From assembly GCF_000970325.1 (NCBI RefSeq), contig NZ_CP009518.1:62001-126000 (forward strand): 64,000 bases of DNA, written 5' to 3'. This DNA comes from Methanococcoides methylutens MM1. GTDB lineage: Archaea; Halobacteriota; Methanosarcinia; Methanosarcinales; Methanosarcinaceae. Both the position numbers and the translations under genes were made by a program. Positions 11,656 to 30,404 of this stretch are shown here, one piece after another. The notes under the pieces are model-generated. The model did no database searches, was not told the origin of the DNA, and saw nothing but the letters and a program-made list of their open reading frames with translations. Every line of letters begins with the position of its first letter. Position 1 is the first letter of the stretch.

Positions 11656-12627
11656 ATGACTAAGGATATTCTGATTCATCAGATCATTGACGTATTGGAG
11701 CTTGCCGGTTTCACCGTGTCAAATCGATGTAATATCAGACCTCGGAGTTTCGATATCGCTGCACGTCAGGATAATACGCTCCTATTCTGTAAGGTCTTAT
11801 ACAACATTGACGGTCTGAACGAAGAAACTGCCCGGGAGATGATAGCCCTGGCGGAGTATCTTGGTGGCTATCCGATACTGGTGGGTGCAAAGACACGTGA
11901 CCAGATGCTTGAGGACAGCGTAGTGTATATGAGATACGATATACCTGCGGTCAACGTCCAGACACTTTTTGATTATTTTGTAGAGAATGTCCCTCCGCTT
12001 GTTTCAGCAGCACCCGGAGGGCTCTATGTATCCATAGATGGTGACGTACTGAAGGATGCAAGAACGGAGATATCTATGTCACTGGGAGCCCTTGCTTCCG
12101 AGCTTGGTGTGTCCCGCCGTACCATCAGTAAATATGAAGAAGGGCAGATGGATGCCTCCATCGACATCGTGTTACATCTTGAGGAGATTCTGGATGTAGC
12201 TCTGGCGAAATCCATTGATATCCTGCGAACCTTCGAGAAAGAGATGGATGGCAAGAATGTCAAAGAGGAAGAGCCGGAGAGGACAACTCCTCCCAACGAC
12301 AATATCCTGAACCTGATCTATACGCTTGGCTATGATGTCCTTTCAACGAACCAGGCCCCATTCAAAGCGGTATCCAAGGACTATTCCAGCACTTTCCTTA
12401 CAGGGGTGAGTGAATACAGCAGTGCAATGCTAAAGCGTGCCCACCTGATGAGCAGTATCTCTGATGTCATCAGAACGCAGTCTATCTTTATTGTTGAAGG
12501 TAAGAGCAGGTATGAATCTGTGGAGAACACTGTACTTATAGAACGGGAAGAGCTGAACTCGCTGTCCGATGCTGATGACCTTGAGACCCTTATCAATGAA
12601 AGGGCAAGGCACAGAAGTGAGAACTGA
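11656..12627 (+). CDS. Archaeal HTH-type transcriptional regulator (COG1395-like)
   Basis: About 323 residues. A short N-terminal alpha/beta region (about 1-110) resembles a restriction-endonuclease-like fold; a Xre/cro-type helix-turn-helix follows at about 140-200 (LGALASELGVSRRTISKYEEGQ); a C-terminal domain contains further alpha/beta repeats. This layout is characteristic of a widespread archaeal regulator family of unknown target. The ATG at 11656 is preferred over 11632 on family start, but no clear ribosome site distinguishes them. TATA-like TTTATATA sequences lie just upstream. Confidence 0.8.
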   Translation: MTKDILIHQIIDVLELAGFTVSNRCNIRPRSFDIAARQDNTLLFCKVLYNIDGLNEETAREMIALAEYLGGYPILVGAKTRDQMLEDSVVYMRYDIPAVNVQTLFDYFVENVPPLVSAAPGGLYVSIDGDVLKDARTEISMSLGALASELGVSRRTISKYEEGQMDASIDIVLHLEEILDVALAKSIDILRTFEKEMDGKNVKEEEPERTTPPNDNILNLIYTLGYDVLSTNQAPFKAVSKDYSSTFLTGVSEYSSAMLKRAHLMSSISDVIRTQSIFIVEGKSRYESVENTVLIEREELNSLSDADDLETLINERARHRSEN

Positions 12628-17584: not shown

Positions 17585-17630
17585 CAACTGCTCTCGTTCA
17601 GTTGGATGATGTGGACAGATTATATTTATA
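17585..17630 (+). promoter_or_regulatory. Island operator and TATA box, copy 1 (protease promoter)
   Basis: CAGTTGGATGATGTGGACA (17599-17617) ends exactly 5 bases before TATTTATA (17623-17630). CAACTG (17585-17590) and CAGTTG (17599-17604) form a dyad with an 8-base gap, the same gap as in copy 2. The 341 bases between metV and the protease hold this promoter and the leader below; the part before 17580 shows no gene. Confidence 0.7.
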
Positions 17631-17655
17631 ATGTGACTTGGTTAGAACATCATGC

Positions 17656-17774
17656 AACATCGTAAAGATGTTATTGGGGGTTCACCCAGTCTTGACGGAA
17701 TAACTGAAGCTTCATGCCCAGAGGCAGGGTTATACTTTGCTGTTTGTACTATATAAGCGTAGCTTTGCCTCTGG
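17656..17774 (+). promoter_or_regulatory. Structured 5' leader, copy 1
   Basis: Expected to lie within the protease mRNA. AACATC/GATGTT (17656-17672) forms a hairpin with a GTAAA loop near the predicted 5' end. GTTATT and AATAAC can enclose a GGG/CCC hairpin. A perfect 9-bp long-range stem, CCAGAGGCA (17718-17726) with TGCCTCTGG (17766-17774), ends at a GGAG that could serve as a ribosome site. A second TATA-like sequence (about 17749-17757) lies inside the loop, so a downstream promoter is an alternative. Confidence 0.5.
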
Positions 17775-17801
17775 AGTTAATTGAACAAATGGAGAAAGTA
17801 A

Positions 17802-18956
17802 ATGAAAACAAAACTCAAATTTGGAATAAGTGTGTTACTTGTGGCAGCGCTACTAATTGGAGTGGCATTTATTGGATCTGCAAACTCAGAAAACGCTCTT
17901 TCTGAATCAAAGGACAACAACTTAACTGATGAATTAGAGAATTCTCAAGTTGAATGCATCGATATACCTAATTTTGGTCCTGAGACATTTGAAAATGTTA
18001 AGGGTAAATACAAAGTTTTAGATACAAAAGGTAAAATCCCCCGATATAGTACACAAGCAGAAAGAAAAGAATGGCTTGGTACACTTCACACTACCATGAC
18101 AGATATGAAGGTAGATATCGATCCATATCTCTATCCAAAAGGTCCTGTGATTTATTATGGGTGGGATATCAATGGCTATCTCGAAGTAATACTCTTTGAA
18201 AATCAAACGTTATCAAAATCTCAAATTAACGATATATATGATGTTATAAATAGAAAAGCAAAACAAAACGGTACCAGTGAAATTCCTGTGATTTTCATTG
18301 CCGATGGTTTCATACAGGATACCAAAGACTACGATGACAGTTTCAATCCCTTTGTTGGTGGCATACAAATACAAGCTGTAAAAAGTGGTTCAACATATGC
18401 AGCATCACTTGGTTTTCCTGTAAAGAAAAGTAATGGTAATGAAGGTTTTGTCACCGCCAAGCACTTTGCAGACACTGTTGGATTAGAAATATATCAACCA
18501 ACAACAAATGGAAACTTAGTTGGAACTGTTACTGAACTTGCCGGACACAATGCAGATGCAGCATTCATAGATGTAGAAGATGATTCAAAGGTTGTACCTA
18601 AGATATTCCTTGGTTCAGGTGGTGAAGCATATGTCAGAGGGTATAAATCACAGGCCCCAACACAAGATTGGGTAGGATGGAGGGTGTATAAAACAGGGCA
18701 GACAACTGGCGTGACTGGTGGAAATATCGCTGGAATTGGAGTAACTCTTGATTCAGATGGGTACAAGTATTATAATCAAGTAAAAGCAACGTATACATCT
18801 TTACCAGGGGACAGTGGTTCTCCAGTATATATCCTCGATGGGGGATGTAAAATTGTAGGAATTACTAGGTCTAAGTCCCCAGATGGTACAATTTCTTACT
18901 TCTCACCTCTTTCTGGAGTTATAAACGATCTGAACGTTATACCACTTACATATTGA
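17802..18956 (+). CDS. Secreted trypsin-like (S1 family) serine protease with N-terminal prodomain
   Basis: A 384-residue exported protease. The signal peptide spans about residues 1-28. Residues 79-172 form a domain that recurs twice in the next gene (see 18994). The catalytic domain, about 190-384, has a complete triad: His221 in TAKHFADT, Asp252 in HNADAAFID and Ser338 in LPGDSGSPV. It resembles streptogrisin/alpha-lytic-type proteases, whose prodomains act as folding aid and inhibitor; by analogy residues 79-172 may do the same. The ATG at 17802 follows GGAG by 7 bases. Expression is probably controlled by the island operator and leader. Base use is more A+T-rich than in the flanking folate genes. 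Confidence 0.9.
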   Translation: MKTKLKFGISVLLVAALLIGVAFIGSANSENALSESKDNNLTDELENSQVECIDIPNFGPETFENVKGKYKVLDTKGKIPRYSTQAERKEWLGTLHTTMTDMKVDIDPYLYPKGPVIYYGWDINGYLEVILFENQTLSKSQINDIYDVINRKAKQNGTSEIPVIFIADGFIQDTKDYDDSFNPFVGGIQIQAVKSGSTYAASLGFPVKKSNGNEGFVTAKHFADTVGLEIYQPTTNGNLVGTVTELAGHNADAAFIDVEDDSKVVPKIFLGSGGEAYVRGYKSQAPTQDWVGWRVYKTGQTTGVTGGNIAGIGVTLDSDGYKYYNQVKATYTSLPGDSGSPVYILDGGCKIVGITRSKSPDGTISYFSPLSGVINDLNVIPLTY

Positions 18957-18993: not shown

Positions 18994-20091
18994 ATGATGG
19001 TCTTTAAAATGGTGATTATAAAAATGATTATTAAAAGATATTATTCATTAGCTGTGTTGGGCATTCTTTGCCTTCTCTTTGCTATAAACCTCGTTAATGC
19101 ATCGATTACAGAAGATTTAAACATGACTAATGGAGATAATACATTGGATATTGATCGAACAAGAAGTGCAGAATACACATTCATTTTCGGCTTAGGTCCT
19201 TTCGAGCATGAAGCAATTGGCAGCGTAGGGACACTCCCCGAGCTCAATACTGAAAAACAGAAAAAAGAATGGGCTCTTAGGCTCGAGGAACTGAATGAAA
19301 GATTAAAAGACGGTATGGTTTCTTCCCACATGTACCCCTATGGAAAAGTGCTGACATGCGGATATAATTCAAATGGATATCTTGTGATATTGTTTGAGAA
19401 TAAGACAATAGAACAGGATACAATAGATGAAATATACGCATTTGTGGATGAAAAAGCAAGAGATTTAAACATTCAGGATGTCCCGGTAGAGTTTGGGCGT
19501 GGGGAATACTGGCAACAGTATGAAATTGACATGAATATTTTAAGTGAAGCAGAGCTCGATGCCGATAAAGAATTCATGAAAAGTGGAAGGGGAACATATC
19601 AACCAACAGTTATTGCAAGGTATGGAAAATTACCGCTTCTCACAACGGATGAACAAAGATCTGATTTTGGCAATGATTTGATGGATATCCTGCATGATGT
19701 CAGGTTGGAAATGGAACCTTATATGGACAACGGACAAGTCGTAGAATATGGTGTAACATTTGGTCCCTCAGTTGAAGTTGGGATGAACAAAAATGAAATT
19801 GATAATGTCCAAATGTTGTGTTATGAAGTATACGGAATATTTGACGAGGAAGCAAAAAAAACAGGGATCAACGAGATTCCAGTAACTTTCATTGAAACCG
19901 GAAAGATTATAGATACTGTCGAAATTGTGGAAGAAAACGATGTTGTAGGTCCCGGGTTATCGGAATCAGATCTCGCGATTATAGATAATGAAACTACACA
20001 GGAAGAACCCGATACAAACAAGCAAACACCGGGCTTTACCTCAATAATGCTCATTATCGGGCTGTTGTTATCGGCAAGGAGTAAGAAGTGA
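18994..20091 (+). CDS. Surface-anchored protein with two free protease-prodomain units
   Basis: A 365-residue exported protein with no protease domain. After a signal peptide (about 11-36) it has two units, about 80-170 and 210-307, that align with the prodomain of the upstream protease: shared landmarks are a T..(Q/E)(R/K) start, (M/D)PY.Y..G.V..YG or similar, NGYL.V, an IY......(K/E)A helix and (I/V)PV.F at the end. The C-terminus is Thr/Glu/Gln-rich and ends TPGFTSIMLIIGLLLSARSKK-like, a PGF-CTERM signal expected to be handled by archaeosortase. The start is uncertain (18994, 19009 or 19024). An inhibitor, immunity or folding role towards the protease is inferred from homology alone. Confidence 0.8.
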   Translation: MMVFKMVIIKMIIKRYYSLAVLGILCLLFAINLVNASITEDLNMTNGDNTLDIDRTRSAEYTFIFGLGPFEHEAIGSVGTLPELNTEKQKKEWALRLEELNERLKDGMVSSHMYPYGKVLTCGYNSNGYLVILFENKTIEQDTIDEIYAFVDEKARDLNIQDVPVEFGRGEYWQQYEIDMNILSEAELDADKEFMKSGRGTYQPTVIARYGKLPLLTTDEQRSDFGNDLMDILHDVRLEMEPYMDNGQVVEYGVTFGPSVEVGMNKNEIDNVQMLCYEVYGIFDEEAKKTGINEIPVTFIETGKIIDTVEIVEENDVVGPGLSESDLAIIDNETTQEEPDTNKQTPGFTSIMLIIGLLLSARSKK

Positions 20092-20275: not shown

Positions 20276-21007
20276 TTAACTAGCTGAAATGGCAGGTTCG
20301 GATTCCGATATGGCGTTTTTCAGATATGTTTCTATTTCCGGGTTAATGAAGCATCTTTTGTATTTCCCATCGTTCTTAAGATCTACAAGGCCTTCATTGT
20401 GCATGTTTTTAATGTGCCAGTGCACGGTGCTTTTGTCCAGATTAAAAGTTTGCGTGAGATCCTGATTTGTTATTCCCGGTTCATAAAGAATGGAGATCAA
20501 AATTGTTTTTCCTGTGTCATTTCGAAGGAAGAATGCAATTTTTTGTTCTGAGTCGGTGTGTTTATAAGAATTCTTAAAAACCATTACCACTCTTCCTTTC
20601 CTTACACATTTTACTTTGTTGTAAATCTGAAGCATTTTCAAATGGTATCTGATAGTACCTCTGTTCAATTTGAGATGTCTTTCAATGTCGGATATTGTAC
20701 TTCCATGGTTAGCGGTTATAAATTCGAGAATTTCATCGCGTTTTTGGTTTTTGCAGTTTTGTCCTATTCTTCCGAGCAACAAAGGCAGGAACTTGTAGAC
20801 AGCTAGCGAGGCACCCAATAAACCGGAGATATAGGCTATTTGAAGGGATAACGGGATTTCCCAGAAAGTCAGAGTGGTGGTGGCGCCACCCTTATACATG
20901 TCCATATCAGGATCAGGATCTAAAATAATTTCATACTCGCTTGCAGTGGCTAAAGTGGAACTGCAAACGAGTGTGAACAGCAAAAATAGAGTCCATAAAA
21001 ATTTCAT
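20276..21007 (-). CDS. Membrane-anchored regulator with two winged-helix domains
   Basis: A 243-residue one-component regulator. A hydrophobic N-terminus (1-22) and a second TM segment (about 50-76, with a basic flank KNQKRDE after it) bracket a short external loop rich in Asp. The cytoplasmic part holds two winged-helix domains, about 85-150 (STISDIERHLKLNRGTIRYHLKML) and 165-230 (GITNQDLTQTFNLDKSTVHWHIKNM). Both resemble ArsR/MarR-like DNA readers of Methanosarcina. It follows the exported 140-residue protein by 17 bases and so is expressed from the palindromic promoter at 21504. Control of that promoter and of its relatives is a reasonable inference. Confidence 0.8.
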   Translation of the reverse strand: MKFLWTLFLLFTLVCSSTLATASEYEIILDPDPDMDMYKGGATTTLTFWEIPLSLQIAYISGLLGASLAVYKFLPLLLGRIGQNCKNQKRDEILEFITANHGSTISDIERHLKLNRGTIRYHLKMLQIYNKVKCVRKGRVVMVFKNSYKHTDSEQKIAFFLRNDTGKTILISILYEPGITNQDLTQTFNLDKSTVHWHIKNMHNEGLVDLKNDGKYKRCFINPEIETYLKNAISESEPAISAS

Positions 21008-21024
21008 GACTATGGAAACAATTT

Positions 21025-21447
21025 TCAGATATAATAATCTTCTGTACCTGAAACACTATAACCATAAACCTCATAATGCCATGTTCCGATGTCAATTCCA
21101 TCCGAATTTCTTATTGCAAATTTAATTCTTCCATCGATGACACCATCGGAACTGTCATAGTATGTTCCGATTAGCTGGCCACTCGGAGTGTGCACTTTTA
21201 ACCTGAGTGAATCGCTTGTATCGCCCCAATTCAGATCAACATATAAAGCAGTTGTGTAGGAGCTGATCGGTACACCATGCCAGTTTGTTTCTCCCTGTGT
21301 TATAGTGGTAGTTACCCATCTTGGTGTGATCGTAATGTCTGACTTGACAGGAACGATGGTATATTCATTGTCCTGACTGGCGGTAGCTGCGGCAAAAGAT
21401 GTCGATATAAGCATTACCATTAGTAATAATCCAATTTTTCTGATCAT
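21025..21447 (-). CDS. Small exported beta-rich protein (PPC-like?)
   Basis: A 140-residue protein with a clear signal peptide (MIRKIGLLLMVMLISTSFAAATA). The mature part is beta-rich and has a pattern (DSLRLKVHTPSGQLIGTYYDSSDG, IGTWHYEVYGYS) reminiscent of the prepeptidase C-terminal (PPC) jelly-roll domains that accompany secreted proteases; this fold assignment is tentative. GGAGG lies 6 bases before the ATG. It is the first gene of an operon with the winged-helix regulator and is divergent from a second small exported protein at 21736. Confidence 0.7.
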   Translation of the reverse strand: MIRKIGLLLMVMLISTSFAAATASQDNEYTIVPVKSDITITPRWVTTTITQGETNWHGVPISSYTTALYVDLNWGDTSDSLRLKVHTPSGQLIGTYYDSSDGVIDGRIKFAIRNSDGIDIGTWHYEVYGYSVSGTEDYYI

Positions 21448-21503
21448 TTATATCCTCCGAAATTTTACAAATTGTCTTGTAAAAAAATAGGATATAAGTT
21501 TTG

Positions 21504-21549
21504 TGTCCATATCATCCAACTGAAAAAGAACAGTTGGATGATATGGACA
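21504..21549. promoter_or_regulatory. Perfect 19-bp inverted-repeat operator between divergent promoters, copy 2
   Basis: TGTCCATATCATCCAACTG (21504-21522), an 8-base A-rich spacer, and CAGTTGGATGATATGGACA (21531-21549) are exact inverses. On the plus strand the right arm ends 5 bases before TATTTATA (21555-21562). On the minus strand the left arm ends 5 bases before CTTATATC. Each divergent promoter therefore carries the same upstream element at the same distance. Confidence 0.75.
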
Positions 21550-21554
21550 GATTA

Positions 21555-21708
21555 TATTTATACAAAGTCAACTCAGGAAAATAAGACATCATAAAGATGT
21601 TTGATGGAGTTCAAACAATCCGTTTCATCTGTATTTGAACTCCACAAGCCCTGAGGCATGGTATTGTTGGTTTTGAGATATTTAAAACTTGCTTGCTTGT
21701 GCCTCCGG
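21555..21708 (+). promoter_or_regulatory. TATA box and structured 5' leader, copy 2
   Basis: TATTTATA at 21555 is followed by ACATC/GATGT with an ATAAA loop (21586-21600), the same stem as copy 1. GGAGTTCAAA pairs with TTTGAACTCC (about 21606-21642). GAGGCA (21653-21658) pairs with TGCCTC (21700-21705) just before GGAG, with a loop of about 41 bases against 39 in copy 1. The conserved position of the last stem next to a GGAG is the best evidence for a functional leader. Confidence 0.5.
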
Positions 21709-21735
21709 AGTAAATTGAATGAGGTAAATGAAAGA

Positions 21736-22137
21736 ATGAAAACAAGCACAATTGCAAAGATTGGAATTTCGATGCTGGTCATGCTGATCGCTGTTGGAAC
21801 TGCTTCAGCAGACGGAGGTTCATCGTATTCCAGTGCAGAATTGATTAGTGTTCCGGATGGAGATATTGATATATGGACTGGTGATTTCACTGCAGATGAC
21901 TGGTATCAATTTACTGTAAACAATGGTGATGATGCTTATATCGACCTGGACTACAAGTTTGCACAGTATGGTGGAGAGATGAAGCTATATGATGATAGTT
22001 CTAGTGATATTGAAGCATGGGTTAGCAGTTCACATAGTGATCACACTGCAGATTTACAAGCATATCCAAAACCACGTATTGAGATTAATGCCGGCAGTCA
22101 ATTTTCCTACAAGTTCATCGCTGGTCTGAACATTTGA
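21736..22137 (+). CDS. Small exported beta-rich protein, facing partner of 21025
   Basis: A 133-residue protein with a signal peptide (about 1-26, ending GTASA). The mature part (WYQFTVNNGDDAYIDLDYK, then KLYDDSSSDIEAW) has the spacing of PPC-type beta-sandwich domains, which is tentative. The ATG at 21736 is chosen because it opens the signal peptide; the open frame extends back to 21658 through the leader. GAGGT lies about 11 bases upstream. It is preceded by the island operator and leader. Function is unknown; its pairing with a similar protein across one operator suggests joint control. Confidence 0.75.
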   Translation: MKTSTIAKIGISMLVMLIAVGTASADGGSSYSSAELISVPDGDIDIWTGDFTADDWYQFTVNNGDDAYIDLDYKFAQYGGEMKLYDDSSSDIEAWVSSSHSDHTADLQAYPKPRIEINAGSQFSYKFIAGLNI

Positions 22138-22255: not shown

Positions 22256-23845
22256 ATGTTCAATAAACAAATCAAATTAATATTGATGTTCATTGCATTG
22301 GTTTGCATATCTTTTCAACCCGTTTCTGCAAGTGACAGTCTGAAACAGACAAATGCAACCTTTGTATCCGATTTGAATCAGACAGCAGGTAAAGACATCA
22401 GAAGTCTAGTGGACACAAGCCTCCTTGATATTGGGAACACCCTTGTTTTTGATGTACTCTGGAGCCCTGGCGGTAATCGTATGCTGATCGATACATTTGT
22501 CAGTGCATACCCGAAAGGGAACCCACGACTTGGCGGTGTATCAGCACTGTATGCAGCAAATGCAGATGGTTCCGGGATAACACGGATTGCGTGGGGAGAA
22601 TGTACTTCCGGTAGCTACGGGAAAATAGTTACAACGCCGGTATGGAGTCAGTCTGGTGATTATTTTGCATATATGGAATTGTTGGAAGGAAGTATGCATA
22701 GGATAGAATCTGCTCAACTTTTTGTTATGTCAAATAATCTTGAATTGATTGAAAAAATAGATTATGATCCGGGAAGTGTTCTGTGTAGTCCAGAATGGAC
22801 TCCAAAATGGTCTCCAACAGAAGATAAACTAGTTGCGATTGTATCTGGTAAAATTAACGTTTATGACTTGGATGAAAATACGGATTTCAGCTTTGAAATG
22901 GCCGATGCCATCGCAGATGTAGAAGATATGGAATGGTCTCCAAATGGCGAGAAAATTGTATTTTTAAAAAATAATCACGATGTTATTACTTTGGATATTG
23001 AAAGCAGAGAAATTAATACGATTTTTTCTGCAGAGCGGCTTATAATGTATGGGGAAAAATGGAGTCCTGACAGTAAAAAGATAATTTTCTGCAAGACAGA
23101 AGGATCGGAGGACTCGGGCGATTTTAGTTACAATGCGTATGTTCTGGCTGAAGGCTTGGAAAATCCTACAAAAATTATAACTTTTAACTCGGGTTCGTCA
23201 AGGGTGATACAGTGGTATCCGGACAGTGAAAGACTTCTGGTTAAAAAAAGGGTTGGTGATGACTCATATGCACTGTATTCACTCTCAATGACCGGAGACA
23301 TGAAAAAACTGATAGATGGTGATCATGATCTTGATGGAATGGTGGGTCCGAATGGTTATATTTTAGCGTCCGTTCACAATCCCAGCTCCAGGGTCCCGCC
23401 TTATATAGAAACGTATGATCTGTTCCTGCTCAATGGATCAGATAAACTGACAATCGAAAACGTGACCCATTACACCTGGAAAGGTGCGGATCTGGTATTT
23501 GTCAAAAATAATGAGATTTCAGTACTGAATACCAGTACACACGATACCCGGGTTATATCACTGCCAGTAAAGAATTCTGCCGGGATTGGTATGGATCCAT
23601 CCGGACGTTTCATTGCTGTGGATTATTATATTTTCGGGTTGGATGAACAGCACCTTCCTCTAACAACTGCTGGAAATGATATGAACAGTACAGTAACTGA
23701 GGTAGTGATACTCAATAATGACACGGACGCCCATTCTGGGGCAAGCACTACAATGGAGACTTCTTCTAAACTTCCCGGATTTACTGTGATTATTGCAGTT
23801 ATGGGAGTACTAACTGCATTTGCCGGTACAAATTGGAAGAAATAA
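22256..23845 (+). CDS. Exported TolB-like beta-propeller protein with PGF-CTERM tail
   Basis: A 529-residue surface protein. After a signal peptide (about 1-26), repeated blades of the TolB/WD40-like type appear: WSPGGNRMLI, WSQSGDYFAY, WSPTEDKLVA, WSPNGEKIVF, WSPDSKKIIF, WYPDSERLLV. The C-terminus has a Thr/Ser-rich stretch and LPGFTVIIAVMGVLTAF followed by lysines, a PGF-CTERM anchor. GAGAGG precedes the ATG by 6 bases. It leads a five-gene operon with two ABC permeases, so it may act as an extracellular sensing or binding part of that transporter; this is inferred from position. Confidence 0.85.
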   Translation: MFNKQIKLILMFIALVCISFQPVSASDSLKQTNATFVSDLNQTAGKDIRSLVDTSLLDIGNTLVFDVLWSPGGNRMLIDTFVSAYPKGNPRLGGVSALYAANADGSGITRIAWGECTSGSYGKIVTTPVWSQSGDYFAYMELLEGSMHRIESAQLFVMSNNLELIEKIDYDPGSVLCSPEWTPKWSPTEDKLVAIVSGKINVYDLDENTDFSFEMADAIADVEDMEWSPNGEKIVFLKNNHDVITLDIESREINTIFSAERLIMYGEKWSPDSKKIIFCKTEGSEDSGDFSYNAYVLAEGLENPTKIITFNSGSSRVIQWYPDSERLLVKKRVGDDSYALYSLSMTGDMKKLIDGDHDLDGMVGPNGYILASVHNPSSRVPPYIETYDLFLLNGSDKLTIENVTHYTWKGADLVFVKNNEISVLNTSTHDTRVISLPVKNSAGIGMDPSGRFIAVDYYIFGLDEQHLPLTTAGNDMNSTVTEVVILNNDTDAHSGASTTMETSSKLPGFTVIIAVMGVLTAFAGTNWKK

Positions 23846-23859
23846 CGGAAGGATTAGTA

Positions 23860-24765
23860 ATGAAAACAAATCGGAATGTGTTTGTGATCGCACAAAAAGA
23901 ATTTGCAGATAACGTGTGGAGTCCGAAGTTCATAATGTTGCTCCTGACGTTCATAGTAATTGTTTTTTCGAAAAGTTATATTGCTGGAATTGGAGCAGAA
24001 GGCAATATATTCGGTGGAAGATTCCTTGACATTGGTCAAATTATTGCCCTCTTCCTGCCATTTATGGGGATTGCACTTGGTTTTGATGCGATGAGTAAAG
24101 AGCGTGAAAGCGGTTCTTTGAATGTGCTTCTTACGCATCCACTGTACAGGGATACTATAATCACCGGGAAAACACTGGGAGCAATGTTAACATTAGCGAT
24201 GGTGGTATTTGTATCAACCATCACTGTTCTCGGGACACTGCTTGTAACATCAGGAGCCGAGTTGAGTTCTTTGATGATAAACAGATTTGTGATTTTTGCA
24301 ATTCTCACATATCTCTTTCTCTCGATTTTCGTGGCTCTTGGCATACTTGGTTCGATCGTCACAAAAAATGCAACAAAATCACTAATATACAATATTGCTA
24401 TCTGGCTTGTTTTGTGTATTGCATTTGGTATGATTGTAGCCACAGCTTCTTCCATTGCAACCGGGGAGAAACCTCTGGATCTAAGTAATAACGATCATTT
24501 TTTAGAAGTCAATGCGGTTGTTCAAAAATTATCTCCGAATCACCATTATGCTATGACGGTAAGTGGCAGGCCCAGTTTCAGCTGGTTAGGTGTTTCAAGT
24601 GAGAAGCCAAACGTGAGAGGAATTTCTGATACAGAACATACGTTGGAGCAGTGGTGGTATGAACTCTGGCCAAATGTTATTGTCTTAATCGTTACTCCCG
24701 CTTTTTTAACAATAATGGCATTTATGACATTTTTACGTCAGGATATATCAAAGGACATGGGGTGA
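23860..24765 (+). CDS. ABC-2 type transporter permease (first copy)
   Basis: A roughly 301-residue membrane protein with six predicted TM helices and the ABC-2/NosY-like cytoplasmic signature KERESGSLNVLLTHPLYRDTIITGK after the second helix. The start is the ATG opening MKTNRNVFVIAQKEFADN, 14 bases after the propeller gene; the open frame begins earlier at 23833. It is about as long as, and strongly similar to, the next gene, so the two probably form a heterodimeric pore with the ATPase at 26864. The substrate is unknown. Confidence 0.9.
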   Translation: MKTNRNVFVIAQKEFADNVWSPKFIMLLLTFIVIVFSKSYIAGIGAEGNIFGGRFLDIGQIIALFLPFMGIALGFDAMSKERESGSLNVLLTHPLYRDTIITGKTLGAMLTLAMVVFVSTITVLGTLLVTSGAELSSLMINRFVIFAILTYLFLSIFVALGILGSIVTKNATKSLIYNIAIWLVLCIAFGMIVATASSIATGEKPLDLSNNDHFLEVNAVVQKLSPNHHYAMTVSGRPSFSWLGVSSEKPNVRGISDTEHTLEQWWYELWPNVIVLIVTPAFLTIMAFMTFLRQDISKDMG

Positions 24766-24769
24766 TTGA

Positions 24770-25639
24770 ATGAAAAGCAGGAACGTATTTGTGATCGCCC
24801 AGAAAGAAGTTGCCGATCATCTTCGGGATTCCGGGTTTTTGGTGTTGCTTGCAACATATACCCTGATAGTTTTTGCCTCTACATACATGTACGGCTCTAT
24901 GAAGCATGAGGCAGGTTCAGTACTTCTGAGCAGCATCAATGTTAAAATGATATCCCTGTTTGGTCCTCTGATCGGTATTGTGCTGGGATTCGATGCGGTC
25001 GTCAGAGAGCGGAAGTCGGGATCTTTGAATGTGTTGTTAACCCATCCGCTATTCAGGGATAATGTAATCGCAGGGAAGTTACTTGGATCAATGCTGGTTC
25101 TGGCTGCTATAATCGTGTTTTCGGTATTTGTATCCGTTGGAACATTGCTGATCTTCTATGGGGCCGATGTCGGACAGACGGAACTGGTTAGAATAGCTGT
25201 TTTCACCGTTCTCACATTTCTCTATGTGTCGATATTTTTGGGAATTGCAGTTCTCATCTCAACGATGGTAAAGGATGGCACCGATTCACTGACCTATAAC
25301 GTTGTTATATGGCTTTTTATCGGCATCTTATTTGGTGGAGTTCTCAAAGCTGCTGTTGTCATATTGACGGGTGATACATCGAACGAAAGTGTACTGATTA
25401 CGCAGCTCTTGAACATGTCCCCACTACATCACTATGCAGAGGCGGTTTTGGGTGAATTGGATCTTAGTTTTGGTGGCTTTAACAGTGAGCCGGTCATAGG
25501 AGGTATTTTCGATACCGGATATAGCCTCACACAGTGCTTAAAAGAATTCTGGATGAATATTGTAGTACTGATAGTGACACCTATTGTTTTGTTCATTGCA
25601 ACTTTCATCACCTTTCTCAGAAAGGACATTACTCTATAA
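24770..25639 (+). CDS. ABC-2 type transporter permease (second copy)
   Basis: A 289-residue paralogue of the preceding permease, sharing the N-terminus (SRNVFVIAQKEVADH) and the loop VRERKSGSLNVLLTHPLFRDNVIAGK. Six TM helices are predicted. The gap to the upstream stop is 4 bases, so translation is probably coupled. The pair looks like an internal tandem duplication that diverged. It most likely works with the ATPase and the NEW3-type protein of the same operon. Confidence 0.9.
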   Translation: MKSRNVFVIAQKEVADHLRDSGFLVLLATYTLIVFASTYMYGSMKHEAGSVLLSSINVKMISLFGPLIGIVLGFDAVVRERKSGSLNVLLTHPLFRDNVIAGKLLGSMLVLAAIIVFSVFVSVGTLLIFYGADVGQTELVRIAVFTVLTFLYVSIFLGIAVLISTMVKDGTDSLTYNVVIWLFIGILFGGVLKAAVVILTGDTSNESVLITQLLNMSPLHHYAEAVLGELDLSFGGFNSEPVIGGIFDTGYSLTQCLKEFWMNIVVLIVTPIVLFIATFITFLRKDITL

Positions 25640-25648
25640 AGTGATAAA

Positions 25649-26857
25649 ATGGTATACAAAATACAACATCTCAGGAAAACGGGGATTATCCTCATGTTCA
25701 TCATTTTACTGACAGTCCCCATCGCAAGTGCGGACTGGTCTTCAATTGCGGTAATGACAAGTATAACGGGTAAGGTTGTCCTGCCTGGGGATACAGTTGA
25801 ATTTCCGATTACCATTGAAAAGGGATACAACAATAGCGACGAGGCCTGGTGTTATCTCTCCATCAAGGACAAAAACGATGGTTGGAGTGCAGGTTTTTAT
25901 GATGACGGGGACCAGATTAGCTGTTTGACTTTCCCGGAGGACAAAAATAGCCCCGAAGAGGTCATACTGAGGGTCAGGCCGCCGATAGATACTCCAAACG
26001 GTGCATATACAATCTGGGCGGATTTCAAGCCGGACGATGGTGATACCATATCACATGAATTTGTGGTCAACGTTGACAATGAGGCTATCCTGGATCTTGA
26101 TATTTACTCGGATGTACCGGGTCTGGAGACCAGGCCAAATGATCCTGTAGAGTTCTATGTAACTCTGGAGAACGATTATGATCATCGTGTGACTGCCAAC
26201 ATTAACGTTGTTGAGAAACCTGATGAATGGGATGTTGAATTTCTGGAAGAAGACAATGGCAAGTACAGGATCACAAAAACAAGTATAGCAGCAAACGAGG
26301 AACAAACTTTCATTGTCAAGGTCCGTCCCTGCCTGAATGCAGTTGATGGTACTTATCCCATTGTTCTGAATGTGGTTCTGGAAAACAGCCGGCTCGGAGT
26401 TTCCCAGCAACTTGATCTTACTATTAATCGGGGAATAGAAGAGGACAAGATGCTAAGCATATTCCCGGGCACAAAAAGCATTGAGTTAAATCCCGGTTCC
26501 TCCGAAGAGATCGTGGTAAATCTACGGAATACGGGTGATCAAACCCTTAATAATGTCGAGTTAAAAGTGCAGGATGTTTCCGGGGTTACCACTTCGATAA
26601 GGAGCTTTGGTGCCATAGATGAGCTGGAGCCGGGCGAGTCCAGAGGGATACCGGTCGAAATTAAAGCACGAGCTGATGCAAGTCCTGACACAAAAGAGAT
26701 ACTGATGCGTGCTGTAAGCGATGAGGCGGAAAGCGAAGACGAACGGGTGGAAGTCTCTGTGATTAAATCAAACAGTAGTGGCTTTATTGGTATTGGAATG
26801 GTAATCGCAGCCCTGCTTTTGCTGATCTTTATTGTTTCTAAATTCGGGAGGAGGTAA
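25649..26857 (+). CDS. Membrane-anchored exported protein with NEW3/CARDB-type beta domains
   Basis: A 402-residue protein: signal peptide (about 9-27), then three or so immunoglobulin-like beta repeats of the NEW3/COG1470 type (LPGDTVEFPITIEKGYNN, RPNDPVEFYVTLENDYDH, NPGSSEEIVVNLRNTGDQTL), and a C-terminal TM helix (GFIGIGMVIAALLLLIFIV) with a basic end. Similar proteins accompany ABC-2 transporters in Methanosarcina. It lies 9 bases after the second permease and 6 before the ATPase. A structural or substrate-presenting role outside the membrane is likely but unproved. Confidence 0.82.
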   Translation: MVYKIQHLRKTGIILMFIILLTVPIASADWSSIAVMTSITGKVVLPGDTVEFPITIEKGYNNSDEAWCYLSIKDKNDGWSAGFYDDGDQISCLTFPEDKNSPEEVILRVRPPIDTPNGAYTIWADFKPDDGDTISHEFVVNVDNEAILDLDIYSDVPGLETRPNDPVEFYVTLENDYDHRVTANINVVEKPDEWDVEFLEEDNGKYRITKTSIAANEEQTFIVKVRPCLNAVDGTYPIVLNVVLENSRLGVSQQLDLTINRGIEEDKMLSIFPGTKSIELNPGSSEEIVVNLRNTGDQTLNNVELKVQDVSGVTTSIRSFGAIDELEPGESRGIPVEIKARADASPDTKEILMRAVSDEAESEDERVEVSVIKSNSSGFIGIGMVIAALLLLIFIVSKFGRR

Positions 26858-26863
26858 TTACAT

Positions 26864-27847
26864 ATGGAAAACTTACAGGATAGATCAGATGTCGCTCAAA
26901 TTGGTACGGAAAATATAATTGAAATTCAGGGGCTAACCAAGTGTTTTGGAAAGCAAAAAGAAATCGTGGCAGTGGATTCACTTACACTAAATGTTAAAAA
27001 AGGCGAAGTTTTTGGTTTTGTAGGCCCAAATGGTGCAGGCAAGACAACAACCATGAAGATGCTGATAGGCCTGCTGGAACCCACAAGCGGTACCGGCAGG
27101 GTTGGGGGGTTTGACATTGTCAGGGAAATTATCAATATCCGTGAAGTCACGGGTGTACTTCCGGAACCTGCTGGCTTTTATGATAATCTCACTGCCAGGC
27201 AGAATCTGAGGTTTTATGCAAAGTTGTATGATATTAAAGAAGATGTCAGGGAAAAACGAATAGTTGAACTGCTGGATATGGTGGGACTTAACGGTGCCAT
27301 AGACCAGAAAACAGGTGGCTTCTCAACAGGTATGCGTAAACGTTTCGGACTTGCCCAGGCCCTGATCAATGATCCGGATATCCTATTTCTGGATGAACCG
27401 ACCAGTGGTATCGATCCAAAGGGTGCACAGATGATGCGTGACCTGATAAAACAGCTTAGCAGGGAAAAGAATGTGACCATTTTCTTAAGTTCCCATGCAA
27501 TGTCAGAGGTGGAAGAGATCTGCAACAGGATAGCAGTGATAGAGAAGGGAAACTTATTGGCAGTGGGATCTGTGGAAGAACTCCGGGATATGGTCAGGGA
27601 AAAGGAAGGAGTACAATACATACTTGAAATTTCGAATATCCCTCTTCAGGATGTTGCTGGTAAATTAAGTGATATCGATGGTGTCCATGAAACATATGCT
27701 AGGAATGGTATGTTATATGTGCATGCGGATGCGGGGATGCGTGCTGAAATTGCAAATAATGTCAAACTGATGGACGGGACAGTGTCCAGATTTGAGGAAG
27801 ACAGGATGGATCTGCAGAAGGTATTCCTGAAACTGATCAAGTCCTGA
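26864..27847 (+). CDS. ABC transporter ATP-binding protein
   Basis: A 327-residue ABC-2-type ATPase of the CcmA/NatA/NosF kind. Walker A is GPNGAGKTTTMK (about residue 56), the Q-loop LPEPAGFYDN, the signature FSTGMRKRFGLAQAL and Walker B ILFLDEPTSG, with the switch His in LSSHAMSEVEE. The last ~100 residues are a regulatory extension typical of the family. A strong GGAGGAGGT precedes the ATG. It closes the operon that starts at 22256 and energises the two permeases. Confidence 0.95.
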   Translation: MENLQDRSDVAQIGTENIIEIQGLTKCFGKQKEIVAVDSLTLNVKKGEVFGFVGPNGAGKTTTMKMLIGLLEPTSGTGRVGGFDIVREIINIREVTGVLPEPAGFYDNLTARQNLRFYAKLYDIKEDVREKRIVELLDMVGLNGAIDQKTGGFSTGMRKRFGLAQALINDPDILFLDEPTSGIDPKGAQMMRDLIKQLSREKNVTIFLSSHAMSEVEEICNRIAVIEKGNLLAVGSVEELRDMVREKEGVQYILEISNIPLQDVAGKLSDIDGVHETYARNGMLYVHADAGMRAEIANNVKLMDGTVSRFEEDRMDLQKVFLKLIKS

Positions 27848-27893: not shown

Positions 27894-27942
27894 AGTTCAT
27901 GATGGCAATCTTGAATTGCTTGTTGGTGGCTCAGTTTCACTT

Positions 27943-28047
27943 CGATGAAATGGACAGAGAACATTTATAATGTAGCGGATATCAGGACTAACAAACATTG
28001 TAAATATATAAGTTGGGTTTAGTCAGTTTTGAAGAAATAACTGAAGC
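27943..28047 (+). promoter_or_regulatory. Island operator, TATA box and leader, copy 3
   Basis: CGATGAAATGGACA (27943-27956) ends 5 bases before CATTTATA (27962-27969). ACATTGTAAATAT follows at 27995, in the position of the copy 1 hairpin. Bases 28024-28047 match copy 1 (17687-17710) at 21 of 24 positions, including AATAACTGAAGC. The first half of the operator has diverged. Confidence 0.6.
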
Positions 28048-28091
28048 CCCTACATGGAGGGTTCTATATCGATTATATCCTGGAAGAAGAA

Positions 28092-28319
28092 TTGTGGCGC
28101 TCAGTAGCAGTACTCCCTCTCTCTTTTTTGGGGATTTGTGTGCTCGATGAAGCCGGAGTTATTTCAATAAGTGCTTTATCAATTTTCATTCTGGCTTTCT
28201 TTGTTACGTTTGTCCACGTTTCATTCATGGTCTGGTACAGGAGAAAGGAAGGTCTGGCATTCTCTAATATTACGGTGATACTGGACCATCTGTTAAGTTC
28301 AAGGTCAAATGATAAGTGA
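28092..28319 (+). CDS. Small two-helix membrane protein
   Basis: A 75-residue protein with two hydrophobic helices (VLPLSFLGICVLDEAGVISI and LSIFILAFFVTFVHVSFMV) and a basic loop-out YRRKEG. The start is a TTG at 28092 with GGAAG just upstream; no ATG is available in frame, which lowers confidence. It follows the copy 3 leader. A decayed piece of the same gene lies at 20150-20215, evidence that the reading frame was once real and duplicated. No function can be given. Confidence 0.55.
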   Translation: MWRSVAVLPLSFLGICVLDEAGVISISALSIFILAFFVTFVHVSFMVWYRRKEGLAFSNITVILDHLLSSRSNDK

Positions 28320-29364: not shown

Positions 29365-29465
29365 CAATTTGATGAAATGGATATAAAATATTTATACTGC
29401 TTGGCACTTAGAACAGAATACGACATTGTAAAGACGTTGTGATATTTGGGAATTCTTGACAGAAC
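29365..29465 (+). promoter_or_regulatory. Island operator, TATA box and leader, copy 4
   Basis: CAATTTGATGAAATGGATA (29365-29383), 15 of 19 identical to the copy 2 arm, ends 5 bases before TATTTATA (29389-29396). ACATTGTAAAGACGTT (29423-29438) matches the copy 1 hairpin position and loop. TCTTGACAGAA near 29455 matches TCTTGACGGAA of copy 1. The 327 bases between the 28395 and 29562 genes hold this element; the first 125 show nothing else. Confidence 0.6.
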
Positions 29466-29561
29466 AGCCAATCCGCATATCAGGGTATTATCTCAGGTTT
29501 TACTGTTTATTCCTATGGCTACGTCTTTGTTTCCGGATCAATGGGTTCAAGAGGACATTGC

Positions 29562-30404
29562 ATGAAACTAAAGCTATTTCTGGGTTTACTGTTAGTGATC
29601 GGCATGATCGGGTCCGGATTGGCAATTGAAGAAAATGCAGAACAAGGCAATGAGTCTGTTGAAGGGCAGTTGCCAGGAAGGGTCCTGACACCGGACGAAG
29701 TAATGGAAGTTTTTGGCAATGTTACGTGGGATTTTCAACTACCCGATGAAGCACCGGATGATTGTATTGTGCGTTCACATGAAGGCACAGAATATGTGTA
29801 TATGTTACGCAATTTTTCAGATCCAGTTTCGCTAACAGAACTAAATGAAGCAAGGGACGATGTGATCAATAGCTATTATGCGAATACTTCGGAGAACGGA
29901 GCTTCATATGGTTCTATAATGTATTCAGTACCTCAGGTTCCGGAAGGAGGGCGCATTGTAGCGTACTGTTTTAGAATTGATGATGAAGGGATAACAAGTG
30001 ATTATGTGGGAATTGCAGGTGACGAAAGGTCCGTATCAAAGATTCATGAAAAGGCAGAAATATGGTACAACAATGAAGTTCTGGAGCTGGAAAATGCAGA
30101 AACAAATACAACTGCTGACGATGAACTCATTTCCAATAGCTCAGTCCAGTTTTTATCTGAAAGTTATACAATGGATGAGGATAGTCTCGAGATTGCAAAT
30201 AAGTTGTATGGTACCGACATTACATATGGCGAATACATAAAGCAGGTCTTCCCTGAAGCATACAAGGAATTTCCATCACCTTCTGAAGAAAAACTCTATA
30301 ATATGGATATGCTATGGCCGAAATCTCCCCGGGGAATCAAATTAGTTATCTGTGTTCTTGTTTTGGCGTTTTTCATGGAGAAAATACTGGAGAAAATGGA
30401 TTGA
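29562..30404 (+). CDS. Exported, C-terminally anchored protein of unknown function
   Basis: A 280-residue protein: signal peptide (MKLKLFLGLLLVIGMIGSGLA), an acidic external domain with an LTPDEVMEVFGNVTWDF start, and a C-terminal TM helix (GIKLVICVLVLAFFM) followed by KILEKMD. Start 29562 is favoured over 29541 because AGAGG lies about 8 bases before it and the signal peptide begins there. Several N-x-S/T sites suit a glycosylated surface protein. It is the target of operator and leader copy 4. No family was recognised. Confidence 0.72.
   Translation: MKLKLFLGLLLVIGMIGSGLAIEENAEQGNESVEGQLPGRVLTPDEVMEVFGNVTWDFQLPDEAPDDCIVRSHEGTEYVYMLRNFSDPVSLTELNEARDDVINSYYANTSENGASYGSIMYSVPQVPEGGRIVAYCFRIDDEGITSDYVGIAGDERSVSKIHEKAEIWYNNEVLELENAETNTTADDELISNSSVQFLSESYTMDEDSLEIANKLYGTDITYGEYIKQVFPEAYKEFPSPSEEKLYNMDMLWPKSPRGIKLVICVLVLAFFMEKILEKMD

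Follow-up and report, generated by a model that had tools for sequence, protein, structure and literature searches.

A probable promoter-abutting 19-bp operator, its candidate membrane-anchored regulator and a three-hairpin leader RNA at exported-protein genes of Methanosarcinaceae

We analysed a window of 64,000 nucleotides from Methanococcoides methylutens MM1 (C1:62001-126000 of the 2.39 Mb genome), in which an initial annotation had reported five 19-bp elements. Sequence inspection found all five, four of them exactly at the reported start positions and the remaining one at 27938 rather than 27943. As had been described, a TATA-type 8-mer lies exactly 5 bases past the element in all five copies, and two copies face each other as a perfect inverted repeat of 19 bp, flanked by two genes whose products have signal-peptide-like N-termini. 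The elements, here called operators, and the features around them are as follows.

17599-17617, + strand: operator copy 1, CAGTTGGATGATGTGGACA
17623-17630, + strand: TATA box of copy 1, TATTTATA, 5 bp past the operator
17646-17802, + strand: three-hairpin leader RNA copy 1 (136 bits, E 7.5e-29)
17802-18956, + strand: exported protein, 384 aa, behind leader copy 1; weak trypsin-like match below the cut-off
20276-21007, - strand: candidate regulator, 243 aa, with a predicted signal helix, short outer segment, one TM helix and two winged helices
21025-21447, - strand: small exported protein, 140 aa, first gene past operator copy 2; no Pfam family
21491-21498, - strand: TATA box of copy 2, CTTATATC, 5 bp past the operator
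21504-21522, - strand: operator copy 2, heading 21025-21447 and then the regulator gene
21531-21549, + strand: operator copy 3, forming the perfect inverted repeat with copy 2; spacer 8 bp
21555-21562, + strand: TATA box of copy 3, TATTTATA, 5 bp past the operator
21575-21732, + strand: three-hairpin leader RNA copy 2 (113 bits, E 2.6e-23)
21736-22137, + strand: small exported protein, 133 aa, starting MKTSTIAKIGISMLVMLIAVGTASADGG, behind leader copy 2
27938-27956, + strand: operator copy 4, CACTTCGATGAAATGGACA; resembles the operator of the second paralogue
27962-27969, + strand: TATA box of copy 4, CATTTATA, 5 bp past the operator
27984-28094, + strand: leader RNA copy 3, shortened or decayed (31 bits, E 4e-4)
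28092-28319, + strand: possible membrane-protein ORF, 75 aa, TTG start; conserved in loci L107 and L104
29365-29383, + strand: operator copy 5, CAATTTGATGAAATGGATA
29389-29396, + strand: TATA box of copy 5, TATTTATA, 5 bp past the operator
29541-30404, + strand: exported or membrane protein, 287 aa; true start likely 29562 (MKLKLFLGLLLV)

Two common features had been missed at the outset: the targets of the window operators are signal-peptide or membrane proteins, and a leader RNA lies behind three of the operators. Most of the target proteins tried in a Pfam search matched no family, and no archaellum genes were recognised among the targets seen. Elsewhere in the window, the C-termini of the products of 18994-20091 and 22256-23845 look like PGF-CTERM sorting tails (TPGFTSIMLIIGLLLSARSKK, KLPGFTVIIAVMGVLTAFAGTNWKK). 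An exported protein with an NPCBM-associated domain is encoded beside ABC transporter ATPase and ABC-2-type permease genes both in the window (22256-27847) and at a second locus (L007 13406-16521), the two proteins being only distantly alike.

How is the element distributed in the genome and beyond? With up to three mismatches allowed, it matched four times in the window, compared with 0.02 matches expected from shuffling, and the copy at 29365 has four mismatches to the exemplar. When the whole genome is searched with the degenerate pattern and one mismatch is tolerated, the non-coding matches fall in two loci, the window island and C1:888-895 kb. At E ≤ 0.01, the 20276 protein has exactly two homologues in the genome, and each site cluster contains one of them. 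At the second locus, the operator takes the form CAGTTCGATGAAATGGACA, and the TATA box again follows after five bases. This second cluster (L007 4430-12303; G000:C1:887-895 kb) contains the paralogous regulator, a LolA-like/DUF4367 lipoprotein and a DUF2339 membrane protein, and has at least three intact operators, whose targets carry no leader RNA. A decayed inverted operator pair in the cluster (L007 12256/12285; 12256-12303) has lost its TATA, and the gene that follows it appears to be a copy of L007 9335-9859 with a frameshift. One further site in the genome, at C1:1726289 (CAGTACTATGATGTAGACA with a TATA-like sequence), has neither a regulator homologue nor a clear exported target nearby and was set aside as incidental.

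For other genomes, loci around regulator homologues were taken from named genomes and from 61 Methanosarcinaceae genomes. The motif with the same TATA distance, which the initial annotation had proposed to seek in related genomes, was found beside regulator homologues in Methanococcoides, Methanolobus, Methanohalophilus and other Methanosarcinaceae. When a matrix built only from ten sites of the own genome was applied to the loci of regulator homologues in other genera, 42 sites scored 16 bits or more, and in 35 of them a TATA core stood at the fixed distance; Markov shuffles yielded 1.6 sites and reversed sequence 3, with no TATA in either control. Similarly, the combined pattern of site plus TATA matched about 150 times in 31 of the 61 whole genomes, and the mirror control gave 0 in all of them. 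The site pattern was present in 28 of 34 genomes with a regulator hit compared with 3 of 27 without one (Fisher p = 2e-8, with genomes counted as independent), a linkage that is a correlation and whose counts are inflated by the shared descent of the clusters. Random placement with no TATA spacing had been named in advance as speaking against an operator; the whole-genome pattern and its mirror control show that the sites are not placed in this way. A dispersed repeat or chance is ruled out by the shuffles, the mirror control (0 in 61 genomes) and the unconserved flanks.

The operator consensus is CAGTTnGAyGAwnTGGnCA, followed by about 5 bp with AAA and then by the TATA box. Among 100 nonredundant sites, TATA-like 8-mers occur at offset 5 in a fraction of 0.48 and at offset 7 in 0.43, which represent two registers of one TATA box, and at any other offset in at most 0.11. 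Between site and TATA, at the expected place of the BRE, the sequence is rich in A (85-90% in columns 2-4), and the site ends upstream of the BRE, overlapping neither the BRE nor the TATA box. The DNA on the upstream side is nearly unconserved (0.06-0.14 bits per column; 24-35% identity among the own-genome copies). The distance to TATA is fixed across unrelated genes, as expected of an operator adjoining the BRE and TATA box, and this spacing, the linkage to the regulator and the recurrence across genera support the earlier reading of the element as a putative operator beside the archaeal BRE. Furthermore, in 30 divergent pairs the two sites are shifted by 27 bp in 14 cases, by 29 in five, by 38 in four and by 77 in three. 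Since 38 equals 27 plus 11, about one helical turn, these shifts hint at a contact between two proteins bound at a divergent pair.

Could the winged-helix protein encoded at 20276-21007, which had been put forward as the binder, read these sites? It appears to be the right candidate, as the two homologues in the genome sit in its two site clusters and this association recurs across genera; the nearest named relative of the protein, in M. seepicolus, shares 72% identity. In more than 20 fetched loci, the regulator gene lies 30-1000 nt downstream of a same-strand operator, often behind a small exported protein, which implies autoregulation. The gene for the second-paralogue regulator is divergent from a site and not clearly downstream of one. 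The AlphaFold model of the regulator (mean pLDDT 78, mostly >90 in the DNA-binding part) predicts helices at residues 2-19 and 53-84 (membrane) and winged helices at 88-145 and 152-236. According to this model and a 28-member alignment, the outer segment is short and disordered and ends in a conserved motif, TLTFWELPL. Both DNA-binding domains match Pfam families (HTH_24, ArsR-type, MarR-type and HVO_0163-type, the last being the HVO_0163 N-terminal HTH family, PF24266), and Foldseek matched them, domain by domain, to ArsR/MarR folds; no solved protein with the whole architecture was found by Foldseek, the best TM-score to the query being ~0.33. A membrane segment and a DNA-binding domain are predicted to share one chain, as in a membrane-anchored one-component regulator.

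The operator variants differ between the two paralogues. Within the genus, all 23 sites of second-paralogue clusters carry A at position 12. Island-type clusters have T there in 17 of 21 sites, and of the four that deviate, three are of the 27938/29365 kind. As the variant tracks the regulator paralogue, the operators at 27938 and 29365 may be read by the second paralogue rather than by the island regulator. Near the distant homologues at L085-L088, L090 and L092-L095, no recognisable site was seen; at L085 and L087, a possible 18-bp variant (CAGTTTAAACGATGGCCA) precedes the leader at about 10660 near more distant homologues, which suggests operator drift. A Methanoregula MAG from another order (L041 9434-9472) has an inverted operator pair with a 1-bp spacer, without a good TATA, about 500 bp before a regulator homologue.

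Past the TATA boxes, the sequences at 17599 and 21531 are alike over the ~150 nt to the start codon and fold into hairpins. The leader is about 155 nt long, has three hairpins and runs into the Shine-Dalgarno sequence of the signal-peptide gene. Such a predicted length is in keeping with the long 5' UTRs described for Methanolobus and Methanosarcina (PMC5378194). RNAalifold, applied to the raw MAFFT alignment, recovered hairpin 3 alone, since hairpins 1 and 2 are thrown out of register by indels. A covariance model with all three hairpins, built from 23 leaders with a hand-set structure, found >150 leader copies in 34 of the 61 family genomes. In 150 sampled genomes of the class, 73 had leader matches, with up to 19 copies per genome, and the leader-bearing genomes among the matches listed were all within one order (families f1-f3). 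In Rfam, the leader reached the gathering threshold of no family, and matches admitted up to E 10 were all below threshold and due to chance; a known RNA family is ruled out on these scores.

Among 117 aligned copies, 27 of 31 base pairs showed double changes, in 336 cells compared with 105 ± 14 after shuffling, an alignment fitted to the structure and for that reason inflated in covariation; the unfitted alignment of 23 sequences gave 20 cells compared with 11.3. In the 117-copy alignment, 87% of the cells pair, compared with 33-55% when slid. The compensatory base changes show that the leader is a structured RNA. An operator lies upstream of 60 of the 117 leaders, in most cases ending 25-29 nt before the leader, and the remaining leaders have different promoters; some genomes have leaders without the regulator or the operator. 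The RNA is therefore a separate module. An N-terminal hydrophobic, signal-like segment is present in 104 of 106 leader-headed ORFs, compared with 43% of ORFs in the same loci.

Mutually exclusive pairings are predicted within the leader, where hairpin 3 contains a Shine-Dalgarno-like strand, AGAGGCA, whose partner UGCCUCU could instead capture the true Shine-Dalgarno sequence. When the 5' strand of hairpin 3 was blocked in silico, the Shine-Dalgarno sequence paired with the 3' strand in 80% of leaders, compared with 35% for a shuffled strand; the predicted pairing is compatible with a translational switch. The leader probably controls the translation or stability of exported-protein messages. 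It resembles riboswitches and other structured 5' leaders in placing structure between the transcription start and the Shine-Dalgarno sequence and in its predicted exclusive pairings but, unlike known riboswitches, has no Rfam match and goes with signal-peptide genes generally rather than with one pathway.

Sequence comparison, which establishes the operator, its fixed TATA spacing, its linkage to the regulator, its paralogue-specific variants and its conservation across genera, as well as the leader structure, makes it likely that the 19-bp element is a BRE-abutting operator of a membrane-anchored one-component regulator (20276-21007 and its relatives), probably an activator that is autoregulated via the divergent pair. 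The N-terminal helix of the regulator would be cleavable or anchoring, and the tandem winged helices would lie in the cytoplasm. The site is asymmetric, its conserved blocks CAGTTnGA and TGGnCA being spaced by about one helical turn, and each block could be contacted by one winged helix of a single chain. From its place right beside the BRE, the regulator would help to recruit TFB/TBP, and a signal at the outer face would modulate it. Through the divergent inverted pair, the regulator operon, which includes a small exported protein, would respond jointly with the exported-protein gene next to it. Many of the target messages would then begin with the leader RNA, a second, separable module.

Alternatively, the 20276 regulator could act as a repressor that, bound beside the BRE, keeps TFB/TBP from loading and is released by an external signal. 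Occlusion is compatible with a site that abuts the BRE, and a divergent pair on the regulator's own promoter fits negative autoregulation too. Archaeal repressor sites, however, mostly overlap the BRE/TATA or the start site, and activators such as EarA bind just upstream of the BRE. The sites described here end upstream of the BRE without overlapping it or TATA, which is the position of EarA (PMC5512572, PMC13286277). This position, from which the choice is made, favours an activator, and we regard repression as rather unlikely.

A second alternative is that another, trans-encoded regulator reads the site and that the neighbouring membrane winged-helix gene is just one of its targets. The regulator gene does lie downstream of a site itself, and in three genomes (G001, G036, G046), which contain one or a few sites, no homologue was detected; on the other hand, paralogue-specific operator variants and genome-wide co-occurrence are what would be expected if the linked protein reads the site, which leaves the alternative improbable. 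Some sites of G045, G016 and G041 are far from any regulator homologue, and a search for extra regulators beside these scattered sites found none, so that they would be acted on in trans. At L120, L122 and L131 (G045, G041 and G016, respectively), operators with leaders are distant from regulator homologues, and trans regulation is likely there. In a third cluster of G045 (L091 9478-10214), the regulator gene carries stop codons and both flanking operators are intact, perhaps served by a paralogue.

The rigid TATA spacing and the AAA-containing, BRE-like stretch could also mean that an alternative TFB recognises the element as an extended BRE, in which case it would be a specialised core promoter and no regulator's operator, but 19 bp ending 5 bp before TATA reach well beyond the usual BRE, and the clustering of the element at one regulator family, with paralogue-specific variants within one genome, makes this very improbable. 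Least credible of all is that the promoter-leader-signal-peptide cassettes are duplicated DNA, alike through recent common descent and without any function: the copies do share similar leaders and signal-peptide codons, and decayed copies exist (L007 12256/12285), but the upstream flanks are unconserved, the operators persist between genera and the leaders show compensatory changes (336 cells against 105 shuffled), so that duplication accounts for the spread and not for the conservation.

The proposed activator has partial counterparts in other archaea. EarA, the archaellum regulator of Methanococcus and Pyrococcus, is likewise a winged-helix protein with a site just upstream of the BRE; it seems to assist TFB recruitment where the BRE is weak, and changes in the BRE bypass it (PMC5512572, PMC13286277). 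Compared by description, EarA is known for the archaellum operon, whereas the present candidate has a predicted membrane anchor, two winged helices, an asymmetric 19-bp site and exported-protein targets. ArnR and ArnR1 of Sulfolobus acidocaldarius are paralogous membrane-bound one-component HTH activators of surface-structure genes (PMC6396743), and by description the candidate shares with them this membrane-bound plan, here predicted, and the presence of paralogues. The order of domains is reversed: the HTH of ArnR is N-terminal (PMC13286277), whereas the 20276 regulator has its membrane part at the N-terminus and its DNA-binding tandem at the C-terminus. ArnR and ArnR1 also belong to a different phylum, and their targets are surface structures, in contrast to the unnamed exported proteins here.

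What might the operator and the leader mean together? A literature search, which covered few subscription papers, found no description of either, and the secreted-protein regulon with its leader looks like an undescribed cell-surface control system in methane-making archaea. The system is wider than first described, comprising an exported-protein regulon in Methanosarcinaceae, a predicted membrane-anchored regulator and an order-wide leader RNA absent from Rfam. More tentatively, and with the balance somewhat against it, the leader could represent a new archaeal class of regulatory RNA that switches secreted-protein translation on many genes, layered on a membrane-sensing transcription regulator and perhaps tying the production of surface proteins to export capacity or to a signal at the surface. 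To our knowledge, the operator has been identified for few regulators of archaea, and membrane-bound regulators are rare among those described; here, an operator, its likely regulator, the targets and paralogue-specific variants were obtained together. Methanosarcina, in the same family, is genetically tractable, and the leader RNA offers a direct route to how methanogens control their surface and secreted proteome.
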